Source of the DNA: Candidatus Omnitrophota bacterium
Lineage (GTDB): Bacteria > Omnitrophota > Gorgyraeia > 2-02-FULL-51-18
Direction of reading: 5' to 3'
DNA: 41,254 nt
NCBI GenBank assembly: GCA_016206805.1
Contig: JACQQX010000022.1
Location: 1-41,254 of the forward strand
Under the pieces are notes generated by a model. It worked only from the letters and a program-made list of their open reading frames with translations. It did not search any database and was not told where the DNA came from. The translations under genes were made by a program, and so were the position numbers. Below are positions 7,644-41,254 of this stretch, piece after piece; within the stretch, counting starts at the first letter, position 1, and each line of letters starts with the position of its first letter.

Positions 7644-9401
7644 TTACAAATGCCCATGGGCCGTTTTTTGAAACATTTTGGCCGGGCGGCCAAAATAATA
7701 CCCCTGCCCCAGATGCACGCCGCAATTGAGCACCGCCTCATACTCCTCCCGCGTCTCAATGCCCTCGGCGGTGGTCATGGCCTGGATGCCGTTGGCGAAT
7801 AAAATCATCGAAAGAACGATTTGCTGCTTGGTGGGGCTGGTGTCAATTTGGCGAATGAGCGTGCGGTCAAACTTGATATAATCGGGCTTTAAAATCGCCA
7901 CGTCCCTCAGCGAGACCGCCCCTCCCCCCACATCGTCAATGGCCACCGAAAACCCCTGGGCCTTGAGCTCCGCCAAAGCGCTCCGCATCCTCTCAAAAGA
8001 CCTCAAAATACTCTGCTCGGTGACTTCGATGACAATATTTTTGAAACCCACGACCCCTCTTTCCGAAAATAAGTTTTTCATCAGTCCGGGATCGATCAGG
8101 GTTTCATGGTTTAAATTCAAAAAAAGCTTCCGATCCGTCGGAATAGCCTGCCCATTCATCAACGCGTAGTCCACGCACAGTTTATCCAGCTCCTTCACGC
8201 GGCCGGACTCGCGCGCCACGCTAAATAGAAGCGTCGCCTCGTCCAGCGGCGCCGAGCCCACACCCCGCGTCAGGGCCTCGTATCCAACGATTTGGCGCGT
8301 CGCCAGGTCCACGATGGGCTGATAAAAACTTTCGATTTTTTTGCCGCGCAGCAGCGCGCTGAAAAGCGCTTCATATTTATCGGAGGCGCGCGGGGCCGTC
8401 GAAACCGTAACGCTTTTCATTTTGGTCGGGAAATGGATTTCCAAAGACAGGTTTTCGGCGGTTTTCGCTTCATGACCGCTGCGGCGATATTTCACATAGC
8501 AGCTGCCGGGCAGGGTCTTCATGTACTTTTTCAACTCGCCGGCGATGCGGCTGATCTGCGTCATTTCGGTCAACGGCATGTGATCGTTGTGCACAATCGC
8601 GATGGAAACGCTCATCAACGGATATTGAGCCAACTCCCCCTGCTTATCGCGCTGAACCAGATACCCTTGCGAACGGTCTTTGGTGTCGTAAAAACCGCCG
8701 ATCACGGAGTCAAAACGCTCAATGATCGCCTGGGAAATGCGAACGGCCGTTTCGGACTCCGTGAGGATAATCAAATCATCCCCGCCCAAGTGCCCTAGAA
8801 AATCATTCGGATTCCCCTCTTTCTTCAGAACCTGTTCGGCGATTTCGCCCAGCCGTTGAATCACCTCATCGCCGCGCGCGTCCCCATAGGCGCTGTTGAA
8901 AGCGGCCAGATCGGAAAGATCGATGCAGCATACGGCAAAAAGTTTTTTCGACCGGATGGCCCGATCGATGCGAACAACGCTCGTGCGGGTGCCGGGAAGG
9001 CGCGTGACAGGATTCACATCCAGCTCGCTGACGCGCTGGACAAGCGCTTCCCGCACGTGCAGCAAAAGCTCTTCGGCCCCTTTGGCTTTTGGAAAACAAA
9101 AATCGATCCTTTCCTCACCCGCCTGAGCGTTCAGCGGCTCCGGGCGATCCACCAGAAGAATGATGGGAATGGCCTTCAGCACCATATCCTCTTTGATGCC
9201 CAGCGCGATATTGCGGCCGTCCTTATGCCCATAATCCTCATCGATCAAAATGAGATTGGGCACCTCGTCAAAAACTTTGGAAAGAATATTATTATCTTCG
9301 GGATAAATAACCGCGCATTGGATTTTCTTGAGGCAGAGGGCAAGCGAGTCGCGCCACTGGGACTGGGGGGCGATGAATAGGACTTTATTTTTTTTCTTCA
9401 C
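7644..9401 (-). CDS. REC-like + GGDEF (degenerate GGDDL) + EAL protein
   Basis: Receiver-like N-terminus KVLFIAPQSQWRDSLALCLKK...LILIDEDYG; HLGGDDLIIL; EAL motifs YEALTRG, VIEVTEQS, AIDDVGGG, YIKFDR, TAEGIET. GTG start at 9401 preferred over the ORF-track ATG at 9437, which overlaps accA. Confidence 0.85.
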   Translation of the reverse strand: MKKKNKVLFIAPQSQWRDSLALCLKKIQCAVIYPEDNNILSKVFDEVPNLILIDEDYGHKDGRNIALGIKEDMVLKAIPIILLVDRPEPLNAQAGEERIDFCFPKAKGAEELLLHVREALVQRVSELDVNPVTRLPGTRTSVVRIDRAIRSKKLFAVCCIDLSDLAAFNSAYGDARGDEVIQRLGEIAEQVLKKEGNPNDFLGHLGGDDLIILTESETAVRISQAIIERFDSVIGGFYDTKDRSQGYLVQRDKQGELAQYPLMSVSIAIVHNDHMPLTEMTQISRIAGELKKYMKTLPGSCYVKYRRSGHEAKTAENLSLEIHFPTKMKSVTVSTAPRASDKYEALFSALLRGKKIESFYQPIVDLATRQIVGYEALTRGVGSAPLDEATLLFSVARESGRVKELDKLCVDYALMNGQAIPTDRKLFLNLNHETLIDPGLMKNLFSERGVVGFKNIVIEVTEQSILRSFERMRSALAELKAQGFSVAIDDVGGGAVSLRDVAILKPDYIKFDRTLIRQIDTSPTKQQIVLSMILFANGIQAMTTAEGIETREEYEAVLNCGVHLGQGYYFGRPAKMFQKTAHGHL

Positions 9402-11474: not shown

Positions 11475-12905
11475 CTATTTTCCAATACAAAATTGATTAA
11501 AAAGCGCGTCCAAAACATCGTCTGTCACCATTTCCCCAGCCAACTCTCCCAATGACTCCATCGCCATCCGGACGTCCGAGGCCACAAACTCCGCCGAGAA
11601 GCCGCCAAGGCAGGCCACCCGCGCCGCTTCCAGGCCCTTTGCCGCGCGATCCAAAAGATCCCGCTGACGCACGGTCGTCACGACGGCCTCCTGCGGAATC
11701 TCAGCCCGACCATTCAAGATAAAAGCTTCGATCGCGCGCTCAAGCGGCCTCACTCCTTCGGCCTCCACACAAGAAGTCCGAAGCAATGGCTCTCCCGCCC
11801 GCGCGACCAGCCCCTTCAAGTCCAACGCCAAAGGCAAATCTGACTTATTGAGAATAATCAGTCGGGGCCGCCCGTCCAATTCCCTCAAAACCGCTTCGTC
11901 TTGAGCCTCCCAGCCACGACTGGCATCCGTGACAAAAAGCACCAGGTCCGCTTGGGCAATCGCCTGTCGGGACCGCGCAACTCCCTCACGTTCAATCGGA
12001 TGCTCCGTCTCCTGAATTCCGGCGGTATCGACAAGTCTCACCGGAAAACCGGAAAGCTGGATCTCCTCCTCCACCACATCGCGCGTCGTGCCCGGGTAAG
12101 GAGTCACAATCACGCGATTTTTTTTGGCCAGTTGGTTCAATAAACTCGATTTGCCGGCGTTGGGTTTGCCGGCCAGGACCACTTTGAGTCCTCTTTTGGC
12201 CAGCAAACCCAGATCGGAGCTTTGGAGCAGCTGGTGAATGGTTTGGGTGATTTTTTCCAACTCCCGCGCCATTTGATCCGGCGGCGTCGGCGATAGATGC
12301 TCATCCGGAAAATCAATCGCCGCTTCCAGATGGCTGAGAATACGGATCAGGTTTTCTTTGACGCCCGCTATTTTCCGGGAAAGATGTCCATCAATGGCCG
12401 CGCCCGCGAACCGGCGCGCGGCTTGGGTTCTGGCTTGAATAAGATCGAGCACCGCCTCGGCCTGCAAAAGATCGATGCGGCCGTTCAAAAAGGCGCGCTT
12501 GGTAAACTCTCCGGGCGCGGCCAAGCGAGCGCCCTCTTTTAAAAGCGCTTCCATGATGGCCTGCAACACGGCGCTCCCTCCATGCGCGCTCAACTCCACC
12601 ACATCTTCACACGTATAACTTTTCGGCGAGCGCATCACCAGCGCGATCACCTCATCAATCAACCCTGTCCCCCTGTCATCTCGGGCGACCGAGCGAAGCG
12701 AGGAAGCCGAGGGATCAACCAGTTGCCCCAACTGAGCGGTAAATGTCTTCTGCTGTGATGGTAAAATCTTAGACTTGGGTTTAAAAACCTTATCGGCAAT
12801 CGCCAGCGCTTGAGGTCCACTGAGCCGGATCACCCCCAAACCCCCTTCACCGGGAGGCGTTGAAATAGCCGCAATCGTATCGCCGGGCAATTCTTTAAGC
12901 GTCAT
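11475..12905 (-). CDS. mnmE: tRNA modification GTPase MnmE, with a 15-aa repeat-derived insertion
   Basis: DTIAAISTPPGEGGLGVIRLSG; GKPNAGKSSLLNQL; YPGTTRDVVEE; DTAGIQETEHPIEREGV; C-terminal FNQFCIGK. Confidence 0.95.
   Translation of the reverse strand: MTLKELPGDTIAAISTPPGEGGLGVIRLSGPQALAIADKVFKPKSKILPSQQKTFTAQLGQLVDPSASSLRSVARDDRGTGLIDEVIALVMRSPKSYTCEDVVELSAHGGSAVLQAIMEALLKEGARLAAPGEFTKRAFLNGRIDLLQAEAVLDLIQARTQAARRFAGAAIDGHLSRKIAGVKENLIRILSHLEAAIDFPDEHLSPTPPDQMARELEKITQTIHQLLQSSDLGLLAKRGLKVVLAGKPNAGKSSLLNQLAKKNRVIVTPYPGTTRDVVEEEIQLSGFPVRLVDTAGIQETEHPIEREGVARSRQAIAQADLVLFVTDASRGWEAQDEAVLRELDGRPRLIILNKSDLPLALDLKGLVARAGEPLLRTSCVEAEGVRPLERAIEAFILNGRAEIPQEAVVTTVRQRDLLDRAAKGLEAARVACLGGFSAEFVASDVRMAMESLGELAGEMVTDDVLDALFNQFCIGK
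12675..12719. repeat. Dispersed repeat inserted in frame in mnmE
   Basis: gtcatctcgggcgaccgagcgaagcgaggaagccgagggatcaac, same family as 25807-25888; translated VDPSASSLRSVARDD. Confidence 0.8.
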
Positions 12906-14193
12906 GCTTTCTCCAGGATTCTCTGATTTCTCCCACCAGATACAGCGAACCGGTCACGACCACTAAGCCATTTTCCCCCGCCTCGGACTTGGCCCAGGTC
13001 AGCGCGTCCCAAGCGTCCTCTTCCACCCAGATTTCCCTGCCCATCGCTTCGGCGGCAAGCCCTATTCTTTTGGCCGGCAAGGCTCTTGGGTTTTTGGACT
13101 GCGTCGCCATCACGGTAATTCCTTCCAAAGCTTTCAAAATGCCTTCGATATCCTTATCCTCAGAAACGCCCAAAACCACCACCAGCTTGTCATAATGAAA
13201 ATGTCTTTCAAGGCCCGGTAAAAGTTTTTGAATGCTTTCGGCGTTTTGAGCCCCATCGAGAATAAGGATTGGCGATTCCGCGAGTTTTTCCATGCGCCCG
13301 GGCCAACGGGCATCCAAAACGCCCTGCCGGATCGCGCCTTCGGAGATCGTCCACCGCGTTTTTTTCTCCAAGGCCTTGGCCAAACCCACCGCCACCGCGG
13401 CGTTATCGATTTGGTGCCGGCCTAAAAGCCCGAGCTCCAGGTTCGGATAATTGCCCATGGGCGTTGAAACATCAAAACGCTGAAAACCGGGCCCGTGGCC
13501 GCGATCGAGCGCCTTGATCGATTCGCCCACCTGCCAGAGCTCCGCCTCCCGTTCACCGGCCGTCCGCTCGATCACCGCCGCCGCCTCCGGAACCTGCGGC
13601 GCCGACACCACGATTTCCCGACCCTTGATGATACCGCATTTTTGAACCGCGATCTTGGAAATGGTTTTGCCCAATTTATCCGTATGCTCCAGGCTGATGG
13701 GGGCCAGTCCCGCCACTTTGGCTTTAGCGATATTGGTGGAATCATAAAGCCCACCCATCCCCACCTCCAGCACCGCCACCTGGATTTTCATTGCTTTAAA
13801 ATGCGAAAAAGCCAGCGCCGTCAATATTTCAAAATAAGTCGGAAGGTTTCGTCTCCAGGAAGCCGTATCCAGAACCTTTCGGATGCGCGTCAAACATTCG
13901 GCCAGGCGCAACTCGCTGATCAAAAGCCCGTTCACCTGGATGCGCTCCCGCAAATCCTCCAGATGCGGAGACGTGTAAAGCCCGACTTTCAGATTTTCCA
14001 TCCGGAGAATGGAGCTTAAGAGCGCCGCGGTCGATCCTTTGCCCTTAGAGCCGGCGATGATCACCGATTCATAGGCATTCTGCGGATTGCCCAGCGCCTT
14101 GGCCAGCTCCCGCATTCGATCCAGCTGAACATCGCGGGGATACTCAAAGGACCGGTCTTTTTCGTAATTGATAAATGAGTTGAGGTAGTCCAT
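12895..14193 (-). CDS. folC: Folylpolyglutamate/dihydrofolate synthase
   Basis: Start MDYLNSFINYEKDRSFEY at 14193; IIAGSKGKGSTAALLSSIL; GLYTSPHLEDLRERIQVNG; LLGRHQIDNAAVAVGLA; ILDGAQNAES. Confidence 0.93.
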   Translation of the reverse strand: MDYLNSFINYEKDRSFEYPRDVQLDRMRELAKALGNPQNAYESVIIAGSKGKGSTAALLSSILRMENLKVGLYTSPHLEDLRERIQVNGLLISELRLAECLTRIRKVLDTASWRRNLPTYFEILTALAFSHFKAMKIQVAVLEVGMGGLYDSTNIAKAKVAGLAPISLEHTDKLGKTISKIAVQKCGIIKGREIVVSAPQVPEAAAVIERTAGEREAELWQVGESIKALDRGHGPGFQRFDVSTPMGNYPNLELGLLGRHQIDNAAVAVGLAKALEKKTRWTISEGAIRQGVLDARWPGRMEKLAESPILILDGAQNAESIQKLLPGLERHFHYDKLVVVLGVSEDKDIEGILKALEGITVMATQSKNPRALPAKRIGLAAEAMGREIWVEEDAWDALTWAKSEAGENGLVVVTGSLYLVGEIRESWRKHDA

Positions 14194-23582: not shown

Positions 23583-23597
23583 AAGTGCCTCCATATC

Positions 23598-23683
23598 GTC
23601 ATTGCGAGGAGGTCGCCTCGGCGGCCGACGAAGCAATCCCTGTTCAGAGATTGCTTCGGCCGCCGCGGCGGCCTCGCAATGAC
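23598..23683. repeat. Dispersed GTCATTGCGAG...GAAGCAATC palindromic repeat
   Basis: gtcattgcgaggaggtcgcctcggcggccgacgaagcaatc ... gattgcttcggccgccgcggcggcctcgcaatgac. Confidence 0.9.
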
Positions 23684-23690
23684 ATTTTAT

Positions 23691-24852: not shown

Positions 24853-25806
24853 CTACAAGGAGTTCAGGACATCAATCAACTGCCGTATCCGACTGTAACT
24901 GGACCGGTTAAAGGCAAAGATGATGCGTCCAAGACTCGGGTCTTTCTGGTCATCCTCCTCAACGGACTCCAATCGACGAAATTCCCCGTGAGACAAGATG
25001 TCCGCGAACTCCCCATTTAAACGCTCAATCGTCGCGTCGGCGATAGGTTTGCGAAACCGCATCAGGTATTCATCCTTAAAAAACCGCGCGGAATGGTAGT
25101 TTTTGTAAAAATGGACCACCTCTTCGGCGGCCTCTTCCATGTCCTGATAATGCCGAACGAGCGACAGGTCCTGCGGGGAAATCAACCGCTCCTCCGTGAG
25201 ATTTTTTTTCCAAAGCTCCAGCGTCGATGTCCAAAATGTGCCTCCGGGATTATCCGCCATCACGATGGGCCGCGGCATGGCCTTGCCCGTCTGGACGAGC
25301 GTCAGCGACTCAAAACCTTCGTCAAACGTTCCAAAACCGCCCGGAAACAACACGGTGGCCTGGGACTCTTTTAAAAACATAAGCTTTCGGGTGAAAAAAT
25401 ACTTGAAGTGAATGAGTTTTTCGTTGCCCAGGATCACGGGACTGGCCGCCTGCTCAAAAGGCAGCAGGATATTCAATCCGAAGCTGTTTTTCGCGCCGGC
25501 GCCGTCCATCACCGCTTCCATGATGCCGCTGGCGCCGCCTGTGATCACCATCCAGCCTTTTTTAGAAAGCCTCTTGCCGAAGTCACGGGCGTATCGGAAG
25601 ATCTCGTGATGCTTGGGCGTGCGCGCCGAGCCAAAAACAGCGGCTTTGGGAATGCCACGATAGGGTTTAAAAACTTTTAACGCGTAACGAAGCTCTTTGA
25701 AAGCGGTGTTGAGCAGCCGCAGCTCCATGACATCGAGTTTTTCCTTGCGGAGCTTGTCGATGTTGAGCAGCATGTCCTCATAAATGGCGTCGAGAGAAGA
25801 GTCCAT
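24853..25806 (-). CDS. LOG/TIGR00730-family Rossmann-fold protein
   Basis: KAAVFGSARTPK, WMVITGGASGIMEAVMDGA, ATVLFPGGFGTFDEGFESL. Start at 25806 preferred; the upstream extension MIPRLAALARDD is repeat-derived. Confidence 0.87.
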   Translation of the reverse strand: MDSSLDAIYEDMLLNIDKLRKEKLDVMELRLLNTAFKELRYALKVFKPYRGIPKAAVFGSARTPKHHEIFRYARDFGKRLSKKGWMVITGGASGIMEAVMDGAGAKNSFGLNILLPFEQAASPVILGNEKLIHFKYFFTRKLMFLKESQATVLFPGGFGTFDEGFESLTLVQTGKAMPRPIVMADNPGGTFWTSTLELWKKNLTEERLISPQDLSLVRHYQDMEEAAEEVVHFYKNYHSARFFKDEYLMRFRKPIADATIERLNGEFADILSHGEFRRLESVEEDDQKDPSLGRIIFAFNRSSYSRIRQLIDVLNSL

Positions 25807-25888
25807 GTCATCCCGAGCGAGCGCAGCGAGTCGAGGGATCAAGTTGATTCCTCGACTCGTCGCCTGCGGTAACTCCCTCGGAATGACA
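25807..25888. repeat. Dispersed GTCATCCCGAGCGAGCGCAGCGAG...GGAATGAC repeat
   Basis: Starts directly next to the LOG start codon; gtcatcccgagcgagcgcagcgagtcgagggatca ... cctcgactcgtcgcctgcggtaactccctcggaatgac. Confidence 0.85.
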
Positions 25889-25893
25889 ACTTT

Positions 25894-26945: not shown

Positions 26946-27138
26946 TGTCATTCCCGCAACAGTCATTGCGAGTACCTCACGTCATTGCGAGCTCCTCTGG
27001 TCATTGCGAGGTCGCCGAAGGCGACCGAAGCAATCTATGTCGTCTCTAGCAGAGTTTGCTTCGGTCGCCTTCGGCGACCTCGCAACCGCTCCGCTCCTCG
27101 CAACCGCTCCGCTCCTCGCAATGACAGTTTCGCAATGA
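26946..27138. repeat. Nested dispersed-repeat cluster
   Basis: Successive gtcattgcgag heads, 30-bp perfect inverted repeat 27004-27033/27056-27085, and an 18-bp tandem duplication aaccgctccgctcctcgc. Confidence 0.88.
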
Positions 27139-29424: not shown

Positions 29425-29577
29425 TCATTGCGAGCGCAGCGCTGTGCCCGCCAGCGCTTTGTGGCGGGAAGCAATCTATGCGATCACAGAGATTGCTTCG
29501 TCGTCACTACGTTCCTCCTCGCAATGACCATGCCTATCAGGTCATTGCGAGGTCGCCGAAGGCGACCGAAGCAATCT
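29425..29577. repeat. Dispersed repeat array, copy 1 flanking the GIY-YIG gene
   Basis: Contains 29486-29577, nearly identical to 29867-29957. Confidence 0.9.
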
Positions 29578-29860
29578 ATGCCAACTGCAAATCTTTGTAT
29601 TCGGAATTAAATGACTCTATCAACTCTAGCTTTTTCCTGCGCGATCCCGCTTTAATTTGTTTCTCGCGCGAGATGGCGTTATAAGCATCATTGAACATCT
29701 CATAATAAACCAATTTTGTCACATTGTACTTGGATGTAAACCCTTCGACTAACTTATTTTTATGCTCATAAACCCTTTTGGGAAGATCGTTGGTCACGCC
29801 GGTATAAATAACCGTATCCCCAGGATTCATCATCATGTAAACATAATAATTTTTACCCAT
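29576..29860 (-). CDS. Small GIY-YIG nuclease-family protein
   Basis: KNYYVYMMMNPGDTVIYTGVTNDLPKRVYEHKN...FTSKYNVTKLVYYEMFNDAYNAISREKQIKAGSRRKKLELI. Confidence 0.93.
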   Translation of the reverse strand: MGKNYYVYMMMNPGDTVIYTGVTNDLPKRVYEHKNKLVEGFTSKYNVTKLVYYEMFNDAYNAISREKQIKAGSRRKKLELIESFNSEYKDLQLA

Positions 29861-29866
29861 GGCTTG

Positions 29867-30013
29867 ACAGAGATTGCTTCGTCGTCACTGCGTTCCTCCT
29901 CGCAATGACCATGCCTATCAGGTCATTGCGAGGTCGCCGCGGCGACCGAAGCAATCTCTGTAAGAATGATATGACAAAGATTGCTTCGGTCGCTTCGCTC
30001 TCTCGCAATGACG
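29867..30013. repeat. Dispersed repeat array, copy 2 flanking the GIY-YIG gene
   Basis: acagagattgcttcgtcgtcactgcgttcctcctcgcaatgaccatgcctatcaggtcattgcgaggtcgccgcggcgaccgaagcaatct, plus a further inverted copy to 30013. Confidence 0.9.
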
Positions 30014-30021
30014 ACTGAGCG

Positions 30022-31329: not shown

Positions 31330-34300
31330 TTAAGCCGCCGACCCCACGGCGGCCAGGCTGGCGACCACCTCAAAAACCTGTTGGCCGACGTTGAAGGCGA
31401 CCGGCTGAATGGATAATTGAATGCGGTAAATCCGCGCCGACCCGTTCTCGGTGTTGACCACAAGAAAATATTTTTCGAATAGAATCGTTACCAATATCCC
31501 CGTGCCGCGGTAAATCAGCCGGCTCAGAAGACGGCCGAGCGGCGAATCGATCCGATAGGTGCCCTTCTTCTCCAAAGCTTCCATGATGCATGATTCAATC
31601 TCTGCTTTGCCGGGATAAACACGATAGCCCTGGTCGGTGAACTCTCTGCCGGTCGGCATGATTCTGCCTCCCATCGCGGCGATCGTATTGACAAACGCCT
31701 GGTCTTCTCCGACATCCGCAAGAATAACCACATGATACCTCAGAAGCCGGCTTCTATGAATCGCTTGACCGTTCTCGCCGACAAAATATCCGCGTTTTTC
31801 GTTCAGTCGGACAAAACGGACAAATTCATGCTCAAAACCAAGGCCCGTTCCTTGTCCTCGTTCCCGAATCAAATTCTTTACCTCTTGAATTTTTGAAAGC
31901 AATCTATCCGGACTGCGCGTATCACGGTCAATAAGAACCAGCACCTGGCGGTTTTCTGTTTGAAGGGGCCCTAAACCTCTGAGAAATTGAATGAACATCT
32001 TGTCCCCAAAGCGCTCGTCCGCCATCACCTGCATGGCTATCTTGAGCGCTTCTTTATGTTCTTCGGTCACGGCCGGTGAGACCGGCGCTTTAATGGCCCG
32101 CCCCTTCGACTTGGCCTCAAGCCGCCGCTGGATGGCTTTCTGAAGGAGATAGCTTGTGATCGGAACTTCCCCAAAAACGGCATAATGACCTTCGGCATCT
32201 TTATCGTGTAAATCCAAAAGCTCAAAACGCGCGGGTCTTGTGCCGCGATCATCCAGAACAAGCCTGACAGCCACATGCCTGTTGATTTCCACATGAAACG
32301 GAATGATTCTGCCTCTTTTTAATTCGTCCGCCTGTCTCACAAACATATCGGCTAAAATTTCCCGCGCTTTAGGACCCACCTCAGCCGCGTTGGCCACCCG
32401 CTCCCGCGGCAAAACCGTTCCCAGCCTCAAGTCGCTCAAGAAGCTCCGCCCAGGCGCAATAAATTGCGCCCCTACGGGGCCCCTCCCGTCATTGCCAGCT
32501 GCCGCTGCGGGCCAGTCATTGCGAGGCGCCTTCGGCGCCGAAGCAATCTCTGCCCGCCTCAACGTGTCCCCCACCCCTGTCATTCCCGCCACCCCTGTCA
32601 TTCCCGCGGAAGCGGGAATCGGTTTTTCCATAACGCCACCGCTTGCCGCCGTCTTTGCCGCCCCGGGCGCCGGGAGCGTCACCGCCAATCCCGCCGCCCT
32701 TAAGCGCCTGCCCAACCCACCCGGCCCGGCGACCCGCGCGAGCCTGGCTGAAGACACTTCGGCCTCCGCCAGCCGTGCAGGGCGCCCGATCTCGTCGCTT
32801 TCACCGAACACGAAATAGACGTTCCCCAGCTGATCCGGATGGTTCAATAACCACATCATTTCATTTTTTGTGACACCGGCTTCCGCATGGGTATTGAGCC
32901 CTGATGGGACAACGAAAACGATCGCCCTATTATCAGCGATTATGCTTTCCATAAATCGATCATGGTTTTCTTCCGTGTCGCGAAGATGAAGGGCCCCATA
33001 GGCGTCCGGCCAACTGACAAGATTAAGGTCCGTTACCCATTTCTGCGTTTGGAGGTCGCTTAACCCCAATAAATAACCTCCGCTAGCCGCTTCGCTGTGA
33101 TTTCTTAGAAAATCATCTATAAGAAATACGCCTCTAGACCGTTCTTTAAGAATAGAAACAACCGCGGGGATCAAATTCTCATTTTTTTCATTGAGAGACG
33201 GGAGTAACTCCGATTGCACGGCCAAATCAGGAACCTCACTTTGGTCAACAGCTTGCAAGAGCTCAGGCGCAATAAATCGCGCCCCTACGGGTCCCCTCCC
33301 GTCATTGCGAGCCCCCGCTGCGGGCCAGTCATTGCGAGGCGCCTTCGGCGCCGAAGCAATCTCTGCCTGCCCCAACGGATCCACCGGCCCGGCGACCCGC
33401 GCGAGCCTGGCTGAAGACGTCTTAAAAAGCGGCTGCCCGATGTATAAGGGCTGTGCTTCAGGGTCATGGGCAAGCCCGCTAAGATCATTCACCTCCTTGA
33501 TGCCGAACCCGCCGATTTCGTCGCCGGTTGCTTTTTGAATAAATTCTTCATACGTCTGAGTGGTCATGTAGAACTTTTTTTGCTTAAGATAGGCGTTTGG
33601 AACTGATCCTTCAGCAGGAGAAAATTCGTAGTCTTTTTGCAGTACGCTCATCATAACCAGATTCCGCGTCAACGGGTGCGTCTGCTTCACATCCGGAAAA
33701 GTTTCAAAGAATTTATTCAATAACGGCCTCAAAAGTTGTCGGCCTCTCAACGCAGGATTGATATAGACCCCCCGCATCCCTTGAGGCCGGCCCGACGCAT
33801 CCGAGATCTCGATGCTGTAAGCGAATAAATCTGGCATGGCAAAGCCACCCGTTCGCTTGCTCTTATCAACCCATAATTCAAGCCGCCGGGCACCCTTTTC
33901 ATAGTCAATCACCTTGAAGGGTGTGAAAAACAGGTCATCAATCGCTAAGGGTTCCAACTCCTCCGTTCTGTCCTCAAAAGCATCCAGCATTAAAAACCAA
34001 TCGTATGTCCCCTTATCAACCGACAACTTAACAGCATTCTTGTCTCTCTCGCGTTTTAAAAATTCACTGCTTCCTTCCGGTGAGCTCGCATAACTTTGAA
34101 GCAAACGCGCGATGCGCGAAACAGCGCCATGAGCTATTTGCATTTGCTTGATCCATTCACCATATGAATCACCGTTTGAGAAGCCAAGATCCAATATCAT
34201 AGTGGGATAGCTATACATCGGGGCGGAATTATTGATAACATCAACCGTCTCAGCAGGCCAACCATTGGTCAGGGTTTCAATGACAACCCGCTCGCCGAGT

Positions 34301-37300
34301 TTGCTGAGATTTCTCTCATTCCGTTTTTTAGATGCCTCTTTACTGATGTTCTCCGCATCTTCTCGAATCGCGGCAAGCGCGGCTCTATCGGGGTTATTTG
34401 GATCTAGTTTATATAGATTTTCTCCAATTGGATTGAGTCCTTGCAGAAGGCCTTCAGACCATTCTCGGGCAAGGTTCTTCGCATTTCGTTCTTCTTCCGG
34501 CGTCCACCCTTCCGGCTTTTCATCGGTAATGAAATTGGATTTATCGCTCTCCGCCAGCCGCGCGCCGGCGCGCTGCAGAGGAATTTGAAATTTAGCGCCC
34601 TTATTTTCATGTCCTCCATTGACGTTCTGAACCTCTATTGTTTTCGCGCCATGCATTTTAACGATTTCCCACGCCTCCGCCATGCCAAGACCGCCTTTTT
34701 CTTCAACCGTCCCGTCAGGTGTTTTCTTGTTTTTTGCGGATATTCCCAGCTCGAACATCTTAGGTCTGCCGTTTGAGCTGGGTCTCAAAAACTCCGGCGG
34801 AATGCCCCCCGCATTATCAGTTATAACGAGAGCGACGCCCCCGCCCTTTTCCATCGCTTCGATCATGACGGTCACCTTCCTATTTGATCTCCCGGCAACA
34901 TCATCGGTATTTTTTATGATTTCCCCCAAAGCCCGGCGAAGCAAGTGAGGCTGCGCCAACACCCGCAAGCCTTTGTCTACACGGTTCTCGATCCCCACTT
35001 TCACTTTGGGCTCTTCGCCGGCTTGAAGCAGACCGATAAGATCTCCAATAAGATCCCGCAGACCGATCTCCTTCAAAATCAAATCGCCGTTGATAAACTC
35101 GATCTGTGATTCGATAATTTCTCTGATAATGGAAGCGCTTTTTATAATCCGCTCTTTCTGCCTTTTCTGCCTTGCATCCACGAGATCCTGCTTCTCGCAC
35201 CATTGGATGATAGTCTCCAGTTGAGCTTGATACGTCATGAGCGCTAAAACCAGCTTTTCCACTTGCTCAAAAGTGATAATAGGTCTGAAGTCGGTTCTGA
35301 AAGACCGAAAGCGCTCAATATCGGTTCTGAGCTTATTGTGAATATCGTTTGCGCGATTCACGGCGTTAAAAAATCCTTCATTATCGGCTTCAACCAGCTT
35401 GGCCCTGATCGCTCCCGCGTTTAAGCTGAGCGTATTTTGGGGCTGCGTTATCACATCCAGTAGGGCGTGACCCAGCACACTTCTCAGCGCAATCTCGGTT
35501 CGTTGAATACGCTCCAATTCCAAGCGGCGTTTTTCGATAAAATGATCAAGCGCGGGATCCGCTTCTCCCGTTTGCTTCTCGTTAACGACGCTATTAATGA
35601 AATCGGAGAAATCGCGATAGTACCCCTCGCCCACGCTGCCGATTTTTTCCCTATACAGACGCCGCTCACCGTATCGAATCCTTTCGATCGACCATGAATC
35701 TCCGGCGTCAACAACGCGCAGAACAGGGCTTATATTGCCATTTAAATTAAATTCAAAAAATGCAGGTTGTCGCGCCGACGTATGAAGCGGTAAACCTCTA
35801 ATCCACTCGAGAAACGGAGGGGTCATCAAGGCCACATCGTTCCGTGAGACTGCCGCCAGCCGGGCTCCGGCGGTCGCTTTTTTCAAGTGAACGCGGATGC
35901 GCTCAATCCGATTGAGAGCCTCTTGGCGAAGCCGTAAAGGATACGTTTTGCGGGCTTTTTTCGCGCGGAGATTCATTTTTGCGGTATTGAGATATTCCTC
36001 GGCGGCTTCCAAGCCGCCGCTTTTCATCGCGACAAAGGCGCCGTCAAGCTGGCTTAAAAGGCGGAGACGCAGGATCCATTCCTCCGCGATGGCATCCTCA
36101 TTTTCGAGTATTTCCGGGTAAGGCCTCAAAATCGGCGCGATCGCCCAATATTTTAAAAGCGCCCGTTCTTTATCAAAAACCCCGGGGGCCCAAGTGAGAT
36201 AGTAAAATCTGACGGCGGCTTCCGGATCCATCATATCGGGAAGCTTCGCCACTCCCGTTTCTTTATGCAGCCGATGATACAGATTGAGGAAAAAGACCTT
36301 GTCCGAAAACCGGCTGTCCGACGTTAAAAGAGGAACGACTCTGTCGACCAAAACCTGAAATTCTGGCCTTTGGACATCCACGGCCGCCGCCTCTTCCTCG
36401 CTGATATCCAGGCCCTGAAGAAGAACTTTCCGCGGCTTGGGAAACTGCAGGCTGTAGGCCACAATCGTCCTTATCGTCTCAGGCTCGATCTGCGCGTGGG
36501 TCAGGGCCGGGCCGCCTTTCTGCCGCTGTCTTTTCCATCGCGTCTCAAGAAATTCGATCAGCATCCTCAAGGCGACAACCCGATCCCTTTGCTCCTGCCC
36601 AAAAAGACCCGCCGCAAGCTCATCATATGCCCTCCCGTAGCTTTCGACCCTTTTCAGGATTTGATTTTCATAGGTTGAGGCAGGACGATCCGCGGCCGTT
36701 CGCGAGATAGCGGCCGGCGCAGGCAATGGCCCAATCTTCGGTCTTTTCGGCGGAGACGGCGCAAAAGCTGAAATGAGGAAAAGCGACACCATGAGGCCAA
36801 CCAGCGACGCGCCAACCCCGACCGCCGCCGCGGATGGCGGAATAAAATTCGGAAGACTCCTCGACCTGGCAAGCCTCGCGCCGACACCGGCCCCTTGCGG
36901 GGTCGTGTTGCGGGGCTGGATCATTTCAAATCTGACGACAGTCGGCTCGACGTTCGTCGGAGGCACGAACACACTAGAATCGGAAAGATCATTTCGAGTT
37001 TTGCCGTCCAAATTGAAATATTCGCTAACGGCAAATGGCTGCCGGTAGTCCGTTATGACACGGCCCATGGCTTCGCGCACCGCGACAAGATTTCGCCGAA
37101 GGGTGAGATTGAAAAGACGCCCCTTTTCATGCATAATTGGAACGAGGCGCTGGACTTTGCCGAGGCGGATTTGAGGGCCAACTGGCAGAATTACGTGGAT
37201 CGTTTCAAGAAGGAGCTGAAATGAGCGAGAAAGAGTTGTTTGAAAAAAATCTGGAATTATCAACTGAGTTTTCAAAATACCTGCTGACACATCCGGAACT

Positions 37301-40300
37301 TGAGACGCAGATCCCGGAAAATGCCCAAGTGGTGTTTCTCCTGGATAGTGACCCTGAGTTGAGCCGAAAGAACCAGGATCTGGCCCGAAAACAAAAGGCG
37401 CAAGGCCAGTCGGTTCTCTTTGTTCGGGTGAAAGGCCTCCGCGAGGAAGTGTCCCGCCTAATCGACCCCCATCTGGAACCAAGCCCGGCGCTCTAACTCC
37501 CACGCCCAGCCCTCTGTCCACTGGCCACTGATTTCTGGGTCCTGCCCCTTCGCCCGCCAGCCTCGCTCCCCTTCCGCCTTCCGTCTCCGGTCTTCCGCCT
37601 GTTTTTGTCGCCAGCCTCGCCGGTTTTCCGCTTCCCTCTTCCGTCTCACCTCTTGCCTGCTTTTGAGTCATCCGCGCGGCAAAAGTTGTGGTCGTACGGG
37701 ATGCATTGTGAGCGGTAAGCGCCACGGCCGCGACGTATTTCATCGCCTCCGCAAATGTCCCCACGGCGTCATGCGTAAAATCCGCCGAGTGCGCCACAAA
37801 ACCCTCATCCCATAACGCCTGTTCCTTCCGTCTCATAAGCTCTTCCAGCCAATGAGCCAGTTCATGAATGATGGTATTAGCGGCATTTCGTCCCAACCCT
37901 CGCGCCAATCTTTGGTTTAAAAACATCGCCTGCTTTCCACGATAGACTCCGAAAGCACCTGCAAAACTTACGTCACCGCCGACCAAAAGTATTTCTTGAA
38001 TCCCAAAATTTTTTCTTATGGAAGTGGCCATCCGAAGAAGCTCTTTTTCCTCGGAGGTATACTGATCTGGATCTATGACGATCTTTTCCGGGTTCCTCAT
38101 TAGCAAACGAAACGATTGAAAGAATAAAGCCTGACTCACTTTTTCTCCGCCATGGGGCAGATCTTCCAAAGCGGGAATCCTGCCAACGGAATAGCCATTG
38201 GCTCTCATGAGTGCCGCCTGTTCGCTGGCAAGAGATTCATCCACCTGTTTTTGTATTGCCAGTCGGCGTAGAAATAAGCTTGTTTTTCCCCCCTGTTCTA
38301 CGGTTACCTCGAGAAGAAGCATGAGCCTGACGAATTTTTTTTCTTTGTCCAATTTTCCGGGTTCGGTGAGAAAACTCGCCAATTCATTTAGACTGACACT
38401 CCGGTAGTTTTCTTGGTTTATTTTTGAAGCGAGCCCTATGACACCCCGGTCGCCGGTATCGATGGAATTCCAATAACTGTCGTTTGTCTCCCAATCGATC
38501 GGAAATCCTTCAAATACAAACTGAGGACTTGTCTGGGTCAATGTTTCGTGAACAATGGCTTTGTAAAACTCCGCCGCCACGTATTTTTGAATGGTAGGGA
38601 GATACTCGTCCTCATGCTCAAAAGCGCTACGATTTCGGATGAGCGGGAGAGGGATTTGGAGAATAACTCCGAGCTCTCTGAAATGTTTCCGAAGTGGCGC
38701 CGGCACGAGGGCCATGTACTCTTCTTTTAAATCTCGAACTCTTAAGCCCCTTTTATCGACGATTTGGAGCGGCATATCCCTAGCGCTTAAAATTCGGAAT
38801 TTGCCGAAATTACGAGCCTCTTTCTCTCCCGGTTTCACCGCAAAAAAATCAGACTCGCTTAATACCCGATAATCCACCGTCAATGGCTGTCTTTTCCCTT
38901 CCGAGTCGACAAAGTAAATATGAAAATCATCGTGCTGGGCAAGACCGGCGAATGTTTTCCACGCCCTATGGGAAAGCATTTGATCCAGTTCCGGCACGGT
39001 ATTTTCAACCAGCTTCACGCGCCGGACCGTGTTGCCCATTGGCACCCCTTCCAAATTAGTAATACGCCTTCTACCCGTCAGTGCCAATCTTTTAGGAGCG
39101 CCTGAATCATCCTTGGTCAGGGTAAATGTATACAGGTAAGCCCTGTGAGAATTTCGATTGATAATCTCCACCCTGTCCGTTCCTTGGTGTCTTGTATATT
39201 TGCCCGTTCCGAAGAATCCAGCCAGGTCTATTTGAGCCCCTTCTGCTTTGGTGGATTTAGGAATAATGAGCGCATCTTCCTCATCAGCGCCGGGTCCATT
39301 ATCGGAAGCTTCTTCCACGTACTCTTCTATGCCGTCATCTCTCTTCTGGAGATAATAATCGACAACAAGTTCTCCTTTTTGTCCAAGCGTCGCGTCCCAA
39401 GAGTTTTGGGTGATTTCAGCGGTATGAGCCCCTTCTTCACGCTGGACTGTGACATTCTTTAAAATTTCAGCTTCCCATGCATCAGAACGGGGTGGCAAAT
39501 CATCTAAATTTTCAAAGAGTCCATCGAGTCCATCGCTCGTCTCATAGCCACCCTTTTTTTGATGTTGTTGGATCCATTTCATAATTTGAGATATCTCAAT
39601 GCCATCGACCGGTAGGGGAGTATCTTCTCCCTCAGGGACAAATCGTTCCGCCCGGCGAAGTTCAGGTACATCATTTGAAAGAAAGACCATAAACGGCCTT
39701 GCCGCTCCCAGCTCATGGGGCTTGTCGGGCCAGTCCAAATAATCCATCGCTTGCCTTATCGGAAGTGAGGAAAAAGCTCTCCATAACTGGTTCAAAAATG
39801 CTTTTTTTGTTTCAGGCTTTTTATCCAAAATGCGACTTAATTGTCCCGACGCCTCAGGTTTTTTCTTTATCGCCTCCGACAAAAACTGAAGGATGTGAGT
39901 TGTGTCCGACAATCCCGCCCAGCCTTCCGTAGCTTCTTCGAGAGCCTCGACAAAATCACTCACGGTTGAAATCATGGCCAAATGTTCCCGGCTATGCAGG
40001 GTAAAACCATAAGCGAGGCTCTTAAAAAGCCTCTCGTTAATATCCTCCTGCCCGATGTCCAATTCGCCTTTTGCCGCCAAGTCGAATAAACTCTTAAAAA
40101 GGTTCAAGGTGTAATTTTTTTGGTCTTGAAATGGTTCCACGGATATGCTCGAGGCCTGGGAAGCAAGATAAGCCCCCAAAAGCTGGGTGATCTTTTGCAT
40201 TCTCAAGCGAAAAATCTTAAACGGTAAGTCTGACGCGCTTAAATCCAGCTCATGACCTTCGGCAGCAAGTTGAAGCCTGTGAAGAATCTCTGTTTCTTGC

Positions 40301-41254
40301 TTTTCATAAAGAGCGTTAATCAACGGTTCAAGTAGACGCAAGACCTCTTCCCTGAATTCGGTCGGAATGAGCTCAAAATAGGACTCATAAGCTGCCCTTG
40401 CTTCCTCGATAAATTTATCGCGCACGGGAAAAACATGATCGGTCCACAGTGTTTGAATTTTGGATTCGGGACCGGTGATGGAGGAGACGGCAGGGCCGAG
40501 GCCTGGGAGGGCATCCAGCTTTCCCGCTTTGGCTTTTGTTAGGAGAAGATCGATCGCTTTTTCTTTCTTTACGGGATCGGTGATGGAAGGGACGGCAGGG
40601 CCGAGGCCCCAGAGGGCAGGCCCATGTCCCGCTTTGGCATTTGTTAGGAGAAGATCGATCGCTTTTTCTTTCTTTACGGGGTCGGTGATGGAAGGGACGG
40701 CCAGGCCGAGCGGCCAAAGGGCGTCCTCATCTTCCGCTTCGGCTTTTGTTAGGAGAAGATCGATCGCTTTTTCTTTCTTTACGGGGTCGGTGATGGAAGG
40801 GACGGCAGGGCCGAGGCCTACGAGGGCGCCCGGCCATTCCAATAGAGCTCGTGCTAAGAGCATATCGATCGCTCTTTCTTTCTTTACGGGATCGGTGATG
40901 GAAGGGACGGCAGGGCCGAGGCCTGCGAAGGCGAACTTGTCTCCCCCTATGGCTTTTGTTAGGAGAAGATCAATCGCTTTTTCTTTCTTTACGGGATCGG
41001 TGATGGAAGGGACGGCCAGGCCGAGGCCTAGGCGGGCCTGCCGCTTTCCCGCTTCGGCTTCTGTTAGGAGAAGATCGATCGCTCTTTCTTTCTTTACGGG
41101 ATCGGTGATGGAAGGGACGGCAGGGCCGAGGCCCCGGCGGGCAGGCCCATCTCCCGCTTTGGCTTTTGTTAGGAGAAGATCGATCGCTCTTTCTTTCTTT
41201 ACGGGATCGGTGATGGAAGGGACGGCAGGGCCGAGGCCCAGGAGGGCAGATTCA
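31330..41254 (-). CDS. Giant multidomain protein (partial at its N-terminus)
   Basis: Uninterrupted frame from the TAA at 31330 to the window edge. The track starts it at an internal Met (40863), but the frame stays open through more 105-bp repeats. Contains Sel1/TPR-like repeats, GHKL ATPase, HExxH motif, TM segment, histidine-kinase-like ATPase, GNAT-like segment and GARLA linkers. Confidence 0.85.
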   Translation of the reverse strand, partial: ESALLGLGPAVPSITDPVKKERAIDLLLTKAKAGDGPARRGLGPAVPSITDPVKKERAIDLLLTEAEAGKRQARLGLGLAVPSITDPVKKEKAIDLLLTKAIGGDKFAFAGLGPAVPSITDPVKKERAIDMLLARALLEWPGALVGLGPAVPSITDPVKKEKAIDLLLTKAEAEDEDALWPLGLAVPSITDPVKKEKAIDLLLTNAKAGHGPALWGLGPAVPSITDPVKKEKAIDLLLTKAKAGKLDALPGLGPAVSSITGPESKIQTLWTDHVFPVRDKFIEEARAAYESYFELIPTEFREEVLRLLEPLINALYEKQETEILHRLQLAAEGHELDLSASDLPFKIFRLRMQKITQLLGAYLASQASSISVEPFQDQKNYTLNLFKSLFDLAAKGELDIGQEDINERLFKSLAYGFTLHSREHLAMISTVSDFVEALEEATEGWAGLSDTTHILQFLSEAIKKKPEASGQLSRILDKKPETKKAFLNQLWRAFSSLPIRQAMDYLDWPDKPHELGAARPFMVFLSNDVPELRRAERFVPEGEDTPLPVDGIEISQIMKWIQQHQKKGGYETSDGLDGLFENLDDLPPRSDAWEAEILKNVTVQREEGAHTAEITQNSWDATLGQKGELVVDYYLQKRDDGIEEYVEEASDNGPGADEEDALIIPKSTKAEGAQIDLAGFFGTGKYTRHQGTDRVEIINRNSHRAYLYTFTLTKDDSGAPKRLALTGRRRITNLEGVPMGNTVRRVKLVENTVPELDQMLSHRAWKTFAGLAQHDDFHIYFVDSEGKRQPLTVDYRVLSESDFFAVKPGEKEARNFGKFRILSARDMPLQIVDKRGLRVRDLKEEYMALVPAPLRKHFRELGVILQIPLPLIRNRSAFEHEDEYLPTIQKYVAAEFYKAIVHETLTQTSPQFVFEGFPIDWETNDSYWNSIDTGDRGVIGLASKINQENYRSVSLNELASFLTEPGKLDKEKKFVRLMLLLEVTVEQGGKTSLFLRRLAIQKQVDESLASEQAALMRANGYSVGRIPALEDLPHGGEKVSQALFFQSFRLLMRNPEKIVIDPDQYTSEEKELLRMATSIRKNFGIQEILLVGGDVSFAGAFGVYRGKQAMFLNQRLARGLGRNAANTIIHELAHWLEELMRRKEQALWDEGFVAHSADFTHDAVGTFAEAMKYVAAVALTAHNASRTTTTFAARMTQKQARGETEEGSGKPARLATKTGGRPETEGGRGARLAGEGAGPRNQWPVDRGLGVGVRAPGLVPDGGRLGGTLPRGGLSPEQREPTGLAPFVFGPDPGSFGSTQGHYPGETPLGHFPGSASQVPDVSAGILKTQLIIPDFFQTTLSRSFQLLLETIHVILPVGPQIRLGKVQRLVPIMHEKGRLFNLTLRRNLVAVREAMGRVITDYRQPFAVSEYFNLDGKTRNDLSDSSVFVPPTNVEPTVVRFEMIQPRNTTPQGAGVGARLARSRSLPNFIPPSAAAVGVGASLVGLMVSLFLISAFAPSPPKRPKIGPLPAPAAISRTAADRPASTYENQILKRVESYGRAYDELAAGLFGQEQRDRVVALRMLIEFLETRWKRQRQKGGPALTHAQIEPETIRTIVAYSLQFPKPRKVLLQGLDISEEEAAAVDVQRPEFQVLVDRVVPLLTSDSRFSDKVFFLNLYHRLHKETGVAKLPDMMDPEAAVRFYYLTWAPGVFDKERALLKYWAIAPILRPYPEILENEDAIAEEWILRLRLLSQLDGAFVAMKSGGLEAAEEYLNTAKMNLRAKKARKTYPLRLRQEALNRIERIRVHLKKATAGARLAAVSRNDVALMTPPFLEWIRGLPLHTSARQPAFFEFNLNGNISPVLRVVDAGDSWSIERIRYGERRLYREKIGSVGEGYYRDFSDFINSVVNEKQTGEADPALDHFIEKRRLELERIQRTEIALRSVLGHALLDVITQPQNTLSLNAGAIRAKLVEADNEGFFNAVNRANDIHNKLRTDIERFRSFRTDFRPIITFEQVEKLVLALMTYQAQLETIIQWCEKQDLVDARQKRQKERIIKSASIIREIIESQIEFINGDLILKEIGLRDLIGDLIGLLQAGEEPKVKVGIENRVDKGLRVLAQPHLLRRALGEIIKNTDDVAGRSNRKVTVMIEAMEKGGGVALVITDNAGGIPPEFLRPSSNGRPKMFELGISAKNKKTPDGTVEEKGGLGMAEAWEIVKMHGAKTIEVQNVNGGHENKGAKFQIPLQRAGARLAESDKSNFITDEKPEGWTPEEERNAKNLAREWSEGLLQGLNPIGENLYKLDPNNPDRAALAAIREDAENISKEASKKRNERNLSKLGERVVIETLTNGWPAETVDVINNSAPMYSYPTMILDLGFSNGDSYGEWIKQMQIAHGAVSRIARLLQSYASSPEGSSEFLKRERDKNAVKLSVDKGTYDWFLMLDAFEDRTEELEPLAIDDLFFTPFKVIDYEKGARRLELWVDKSKRTGGFAMPDLFAYSIEISDASGRPQGMRGVYINPALRGRQLLRPLLNKFFETFPDVKQTHPLTRNLVMMSVLQKDYEFSPAEGSVPNAYLKQKKFYMTTQTYEEFIQKATGDEIGGFGIKEVNDLSGLAHDPEAQPLYIGQPLFKTSSARLARVAGPVDPLGQAEIASAPKAPRNDWPAAGARNDGRGPVGARFIAPELLQAVDQSEVPDLAVQSELLPSLNEKNENLIPAVVSILKERSRGVFLIDDFLRNHSEAASGGYLLGLSDLQTQKWVTDLNLVSWPDAYGALHLRDTEENHDRFMESIIADNRAIVFVVPSGLNTHAEAGVTKNEMMWLLNHPDQLGNVYFVFGESDEIGRPARLAEAEVSSARLARVAGPGGLGRRLRAAGLAVTLPAPGAAKTAASGGVMEKPIPASAGMTGVAGMTGVGDTLRRAEIASAPKAPRNDWPAAAAGNDGRGPVGAQFIAPGRSFLSDLRLGTVLPRERVANAAEVGPKAREILADMFVRQADELKRGRIIPFHVEINRHVAVRLVLDDRGTRPARFELLDLHDKDAEGHYAVFGEVPITSYLLQKAIQRRLEAKSKGRAIKAPVSPAVTEEHKEALKIAMQVMADERFGDKMFIQFLRGLGPLQTENRQVLVLIDRDTRSPDRLLSKIQEVKNLIRERGQGTGLGFEHEFVRFVRLNEKRGYFVGENGQAIHRSRLLRYHVVILADVGEDQAFVNTIAAMGGRIMPTGREFTDQGYRVYPGKAEIESCIMEALEKKGTYRIDSPLGRLLSRLIYRGTGILVTILFEKYFLVVNTENGSARIYRIQLSIQPVAFNVGQQVFEVVASLAAVGSAA
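32453..32554. repeat. Translated dispersed-repeat array, copy B
   Basis: ggcgcaataaattgcgcccctacggggcccctcccgtcattgccagctgccgctgcgggccagtcattgcgaggcgccttcggcgccgaagcaatctctgcc. Confidence 0.92.
33266..33367. repeat. Translated dispersed-repeat array, copy A
   Basis: Same about 102-bp sequence with about 4 differences from 32453-32554. Confidence 0.92.
34570..35500 (-). other. Histidine-kinase-like region with HATPase domain inside the giant ORF
   Basis: LGHALLDVITQPQNTLSLNAG; LRRALGEIIKNTDDVAG; LVITDNAGGIPPEF; EEKGGLGMAEAWEIVKMHG. Confidence 0.85.
36895..37224 (+). CDS. DUF7718-like small protein, antisense inside the giant ORF
   Basis: IGKIISSFAVQIEIFANGKWLPVVRYDTAHGFAHRDKISPKGEIEKTPLF...NEALDFAEADLRANWQNYVDRFKKELK; stop overlaps the next gene's ATG (ATGA). 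Start uncertain. Confidence 0.65.
   Translation: MRGRVAGLDHFKSDDSRLDVRRRHEHTRIGKIISSFAVQIEIFANGKWLPVVRYDTAHGFAHRDKISPKGEIEKTPLFMHNWNEALDFAEADLRANWQNYVDRFKKELK
37221..37496 (+). CDS. DUF5647-like small protein, antisense inside the giant ORF
   Basis: MSEKELFEKNLELSTEFSKYLLTHPELETQIPENAQVVFLLDSDPELSRKNQDLARKQKAQGQSVLFVRVKGLREEVSRLIDPHLE; AAGGAGCTGAA ribosome-binding site upstream. Confidence 0.75.
   Translation: MSEKELFEKNLELSTEFSKYLLTHPELETQIPENAQVVFLLDSDPELSRKNQDLARKQKAQGQSVLFVRVKGLREEVSRLIDPHLEPSPAL
37852..37866 (-). other. HExxH metallopeptidase-like motif in the giant ORF
   Basis: NTIIHELAHWLEELM. Confidence 0.7.
38550..39460 (-). other. GHKL (Hsp90/MORC-like) ATPase region in the giant ORF
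   Basis: HTAEITQNSWDATLG (N box), EASDNGPGAD (DNGxG), AGFFGTGKYTRHQG (G2-like). Confidence 0.75.
40466..41254. repeat. Tandem 105-bp (35-aa) Sel1/TPR-like repeats
   Basis: Landmark acggg[a/g]tcggtgatggaagggacgg recurs at 40571, 40676, 40781, 40886, 40991, 41096, 41201, exact 105-bp period; a degenerate unit near 40466; continues off the window. Confidence 0.96.

Follow-up and report, generated by a model that had tools for sequence, protein, structure and literature searches.

A giant open reading frame (ORF) of Candidatus Omnitrophota contains what is probably a junction between two modules of a very large modular protein, where a linker with a short border motif has been duplicated together with palindromes, giving repeats through which modules may be exchanged. 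The ORF occupies positions 31330–41254 on the minus strand of the window, by which we mean the whole stretch of DNA analyzed (contig C4, 41254 bp), and it is open to the contig end, so that it encodes at least 3307 residues. The source genome (G000) is a draft in 73 contigs, and all of the genomes compared with it are also drafts. The in-frame insertion of palindromes and the duplication of linker plus palindrome are directly visible in the DNA; sequence statistics show the border motif to be selected as protein, and the content of the slot between the repeats differs between genera of the family.

Anatomy of the duplicated linker and palindrome array

All features of the giant ORF described here lie on the minus strand. 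Linker A (33384–33418) encodes SSARLARVAGP, with the border motif SARLA at 33400–33414, and is followed by array A (33261–33383), which is built from in-frame dispersed palindromes (AEIASAPKAPRNDWPAAGARNDGRGPVGARFIAP). The bracketed module (32756–33265) comprises ∼170 residues with an α/β fold, without a known family, and has a PARLA motif (32767–32781) at its end. Linker B (32721–32755) is the same DNA as linker A, with SARLA at 32737–32751, and leads through a spacer found in copy B only (32573–32720), and a tandem repeat at 32567–32607, to array B (32448–32572) and the C-terminal domain (31333–32450).

The two linkers are identical at 35 of 35 bp, as the first-pass annotation had reported, and within the window their DNA is found at these two sites only, even when three mismatches are allowed. 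The arrays, for which ∼96% identity over ∼102 bp had been claimed, are indeed nearly identical at the positions given (33266–33367 and 32453–32554), the exact value being 95.1% (97 of 102 positions); compared by BLAST over 125 bp, they are 91% identical. The linkers are offset by 663 bp (221 codons) and the arrays by 813 bp (271 codons), both multiples of three, which confirms that the two copies are translated in one frame of the giant ORF. Each array does have its linker, but the layout is asymmetric: a gap of 16 bp separates linker A from array A and one of 166 bp separates linker B from array B, the latter containing two GTCATTCCCGC-type repeats in an extra spacer of ∼150 bp that is absent from copy A. 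The domain of ∼230 residues said to be bracketed by the repeats corresponds to a folded module whose unique part, from array A to linker B, is 510 bp (170 residues), whereas the two arrays lie about 237 residues apart.

In a predicted structure that covers linker A, array A, the module, linker B, and array B, pLDDT values are ∼33–45 in the linkers and arrays and ∼90 over most of the module core, and the module modelled alone has a mean pLDDT of 73.5. The linkers and arrays are predicted to be disordered and the module to be a folded α/β domain. Searches of Pfam, NCBIfam, PDB sequences, and PDB folds returned nothing significant for the module. Seven other genomes among the 285 sampled from the phylum contain distant homologs (∼26–40% identity), as do named Omnitrophota records; one of these homologs lies in an ORF of 370 residues, and none was found in the 12 other genomes of the family.

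Homologs of the module 5′ of linker A (33420–34551) are found in G002 and in a 10,727-residue frame of G012, in both cases between GARLA motifs. This module is preceded in the giant ORF by a GARLA motif (34552–34566), and a HATPase_c domain of the histidine-kinase type (34576–34950) stops three residues short of GARLA. Three further GARLA motifs of the giant ORF are located at 35854–35868, 36868–36882, and 37555–37569. At the contig end, a 105-bp tandem repeat (40467–41249, 7.5 copies) is in frame with the giant ORF; its 35-residue unit ends in ...VPSITDPVKKEKAIDLLLTKAKAG, and a similar repeat array is found in G003 (L091). Other giant ORFs of the same genome also carry in-frame internal duplications, at 8190–8398/8493–8701 in L049 (95% identity) and at 5199–5582/6912–7265 in L046 (79%).

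A probable border pentapeptide and the question of cleavage

What the first-pass annotation missed is that the peptide motif of the linker is itself remarkable. GARLA occurs 98 times, where ∼0.4 would be expected, in the 22 giant frames taken from G000, G003, and G012, accompanied by AARLA (58), GARMA (18), GARLS (10), PARLA (8), and SARLA (4), and the motifs of this set are spaced at a median of 316 residues. A slightly larger set of 27 giant frames of the family (90.5 thousand residues) has 193 instances of the pattern [GA]AR[LM]A, and it is found 185 times in giant frames (85 thousand residues) against seven times in shorter ORFs of the same stretches (76 thousand residues), several of which are cut by contig ends. 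The giant frames in these counts were chosen because they held motif matches. Whole-genome counts, which are independent of the choice of frames, gave 84 matches against 9 for the control pattern in G003 and, more weakly, 38 against 19 in G000. The same count in G012 showed no excess (154 against 149), the background there likely being raised by GC content, and in other families genome-wide counts revealed no excess of the GARLA-type pattern comparable to this one.

The 102 GARLA sites are written in 84 DNA spellings and their flanks are unconserved, from which selection on the peptide rather than on the DNA follows. A function of the motif as a DNA site, whether for recombination or chi-like, was ruled out because its codons vary freely. 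No motif lies inside a Pfam domain, where 6.4 would be expected (p = 0.0017). A match to a PfkB-type kinase in G003 ends ∼6 residues before GARLA, and other modules resemble GH77, GT2, phosphoglycerate dehydrogenase, a methyltransferase, and a beta-CASP RNase. The pentapeptide most likely marks module borders in these giant proteins.

A different pentapeptide takes the place of GARLA in giant ORFs of another family of the phylum, f46 (L084 and L104–L115). The giant frames of f46 contain RSEVR (61), RSEMR (38), RSEIR (9), and RSELR (7), against ∼0.4 expected for the four together. The 106 RSE[VM]R sites are spelled in 79 ways at the DNA level, in a linker-like context similar to that of the GARLA type, and the whole-genome count of this motif in G043 is 215 against 21 for the control. 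Small samples of giant frames from four other families (G199, G205, G148, and G177) contained no dominant pentapeptide.

Polyproteins are single ORFs with recurring cleavage sites between their products. The giant ORFs resemble them in that several enzyme-like modules stand in one ORF with a short recurring motif between them, and differ from them in that the motif changes between bacterial families and that cleavage by a protease is here a hypothesis. Tentatively, then, the giant ORFs could be precursors that are cut at the pentapeptide by a dedicated protease, freeing separate enzymes and regulators, in which case the duplicated linker would be mainly a duplicated cleavage site. Several complete proteins appear to stand in one ORF, bounded by a conserved site (the borders being set by homology and completeness being approximate), the motif is exact and short within otherwise unconserved linkers, and the modules resemble whole enzymes, the kinase match that stops just before GARLA among them. 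Moreover, five [GA]AR[LM]A sites are followed by a Tat-like start, where 0.8 would be expected. A hydrophobic stretch comes after 12.4% of the motifs, compared with 2.1% that are preceded by one and 4.3% at random. Both patterns are as would be expected of new N termini. Tat-like RRxF signals soon after a GARLA-type motif were seen inside the giant ORFs of L045, L051, L052, and L073.

Against this, the same Tat and hydrophobicity test was negative for RSE[VM]R, the giant frames sampled in four families have no dominant pentapeptide, and GARLA also occurs outside any giant ORF, in an ordinary ORF of 492 residues in the window (11478–12953, minus strand) that we take to be MnmE-like from a stretch of its protein sequence. 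It is on account of the RSE[VM]R result and of the MnmE-like ORF that cleavage is put forward here as a hypothesis, with the GARLA-type motif as a plausible cleavage site. Extended to the phylum, the proposal would be that Omnitrophota giant ORFs are polyproteins cut at a lineage-specific pentapeptide by a cognate protease, with palindrome-bearing linkers enabling module exchange by recombination; we regard this too as possible, and somewhat less than probable. Cleavage would supplement the module junction described at the outset, which is still the best explanation, and would not replace it. Collectively, the data on the motif suggest that the giant proteins of the family consist of exchangeable modules and that they may be cleaved into separate products.

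Palindromes and probable module exchange between genera

The arrays are composed of dispersed palindromes that are read through in frame within the giant ORF (AEIAS...PRND). Shuffled sequence would be expected to give 0.7 near-matches to their GTCATTGCGAG core within the window, where 21 are present, and a genome-wide search found ∼40 partial matches to the array, mostly outside long ORFs; most of the array is thus not private to the giant ORF. The array matched nothing among phage sequences or in Rfam. Intergenic clusters of dispersed palindromes are located at 23590–23690, 25800–25890, 26990–27090, 29460–29590, and 29860–30020, several of them as inverted pairs, and the stretches 29486–29580 and 29867–29960 are 96% identical. 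Within giant ORFs the palindromes show no clear clustering around the motif (of 13 copies, 4 lie within ∼65 residues of it), which leaves the idea that they target the border motif unsupported.

As short palindromes in many copies, mostly intergenic and often in inverted pairs, these elements resemble REP/BIME sequences, and they differ from them in that some copies are translated in frame inside a giant ORF. In this last respect they resemble the Rickettsia palindromic elements (RPEs), described as palindromes that lie in frame inside coding genes and are translated (Ogata et al. 2000, 2002, reviewed in PMC10969869), since here too genome-dispersed palindromes have some copies in frame within coding genes. 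RPEs, however, are ∼150 bp long and reside in unrelated metabolic genes, whereas palindrome cores of ∼40 bp are combined here in the linkers of giant proteins, and a module is enclosed by two copies of the linker with its palindromes; the comparison with RPEs is one of arrangement alone.

It could be that selfish palindromes simply landed at random in coding sequence that tolerates them and that one of them was copied by local duplication, with no exchange of modules. The membership of the arrays in genome-wide repeat families, the lack of any clear clustering of in-ORF copies at the motif, and the precedent of the in-frame palindromes of Rickettsia all speak for this account. We nevertheless consider it less likely than not, as the 35-bp linker, which is not dispersed, was duplicated together with the array, and as in-frame repeats bracket a module in three genera, one slot being filled by different modules.

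The comparison between genera centers on the C-terminal domain, which is common to the window genome and to G006, another genus of the family, at 33% identity. Directly 5′ of this domain G006 has a different module, of membrane type with hydrophobic stretches, flanked by two in-frame copies of an SSA(A)R-type linker plus an IASAPAAPRND palindrome (87% identity over 82 bp and 89% over 99 bp). A counterpart of this membrane-type module (36% identity) is found in G001 beside other neighbors, where 119-bp in-frame repeats (76% identity) made up of another palindrome flank it and a GARMA motif is present. The slot before the shared C-terminal domain therefore differs between G000 and G006, and the G006-type module is located elsewhere in G001. 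Different modules in one slot and one module in different slots, each between in-frame repeats, support module exchange at the scale of genera, and different modules in the same slot of two genera are consistent with recombination between the repeats.

Part of the case for the repeat-mediated domain shuffling proposed in the first-pass annotation is retained on this evidence. Direct repeats stand in frame around a folded module, the flanking copies are in frame with one another in G006 as well, and the bracketed module is not invariant, homologs of it having been found in only seven other genomes of the 285 and in none of the 12 other genomes of the family. Genera differ in the module that fills the slot, in a comparison in which the window genus is represented by one genome, and recombination is the step that we infer. 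The two genera could also have duplicated their linkers independently and for other reasons. Linker duplications that start at the border motif, kilobases apart within the same ORF, were also observed in L066 and L071 of G003 and in L113 of G043.

We propose the following course of events for the module junction. Disordered linkers between folded modules carry a border motif that is specific to the lineage ([GA]AR[LM]A type, here SARLA) and selected as protein, and generic dispersed palindromes have inserted in frame into these linkers, which tolerate them. Duplication of a segment of linker and palindrome has placed one module between in-frame direct repeats, and homologous recombination between these repeats may cause the module to be lost, duplicated, or swapped without a frameshift. 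The motif itself would mark sites at which modules are separated or recognized, possibly by a protease. That the duplication is an artefact of short-read misassembly is very improbable: the contig does end in a tandem repeat and belongs to a fragmented draft, but 5 of 102 positions and the ∼150-bp spacer distinguish the two copies, the ORF is open through both, and the independent assembly of G006 has the same layout.

Meaning for the giant proteins of Omnitrophota

The roles of Omnitrophota giant ORFs have been called poorly understood (Seymour et al. 2023; PMC10066038). The ORF described here resembles those of that study in its great length, few annotated domains, and phylum, and differs from them, as far as the passages of that study on giant ORFs, motifs, repeats, and polyproteins go, in its recurring border pentapeptide and repeat-flanked modules, which do not appear there. 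A survey of huge proteins noted that some could be cleaved and that motifs recognized by proteases are hard to predict (PMC11573180). A literature search on the palindrome, GARLA, Omnitrophota polyproteins, and bacterial polyproteins with cleavage motifs found nothing relevant among the papers listed. The arrangement of repeats around the module is, in our judgment, a novel variation on known kinds of repeat. A strict border pentapeptide, if proven to be a processing site, would to our knowledge be new for bacteria.

A strict, lineage-specific border motif of this kind supplies sites that can be put to the test directly and splits the giant ORFs into modules for individual annotation. The repeat-flanked module, in turn, offers a concrete route by which giant proteins may gain and lose parts while the reading frame is kept.
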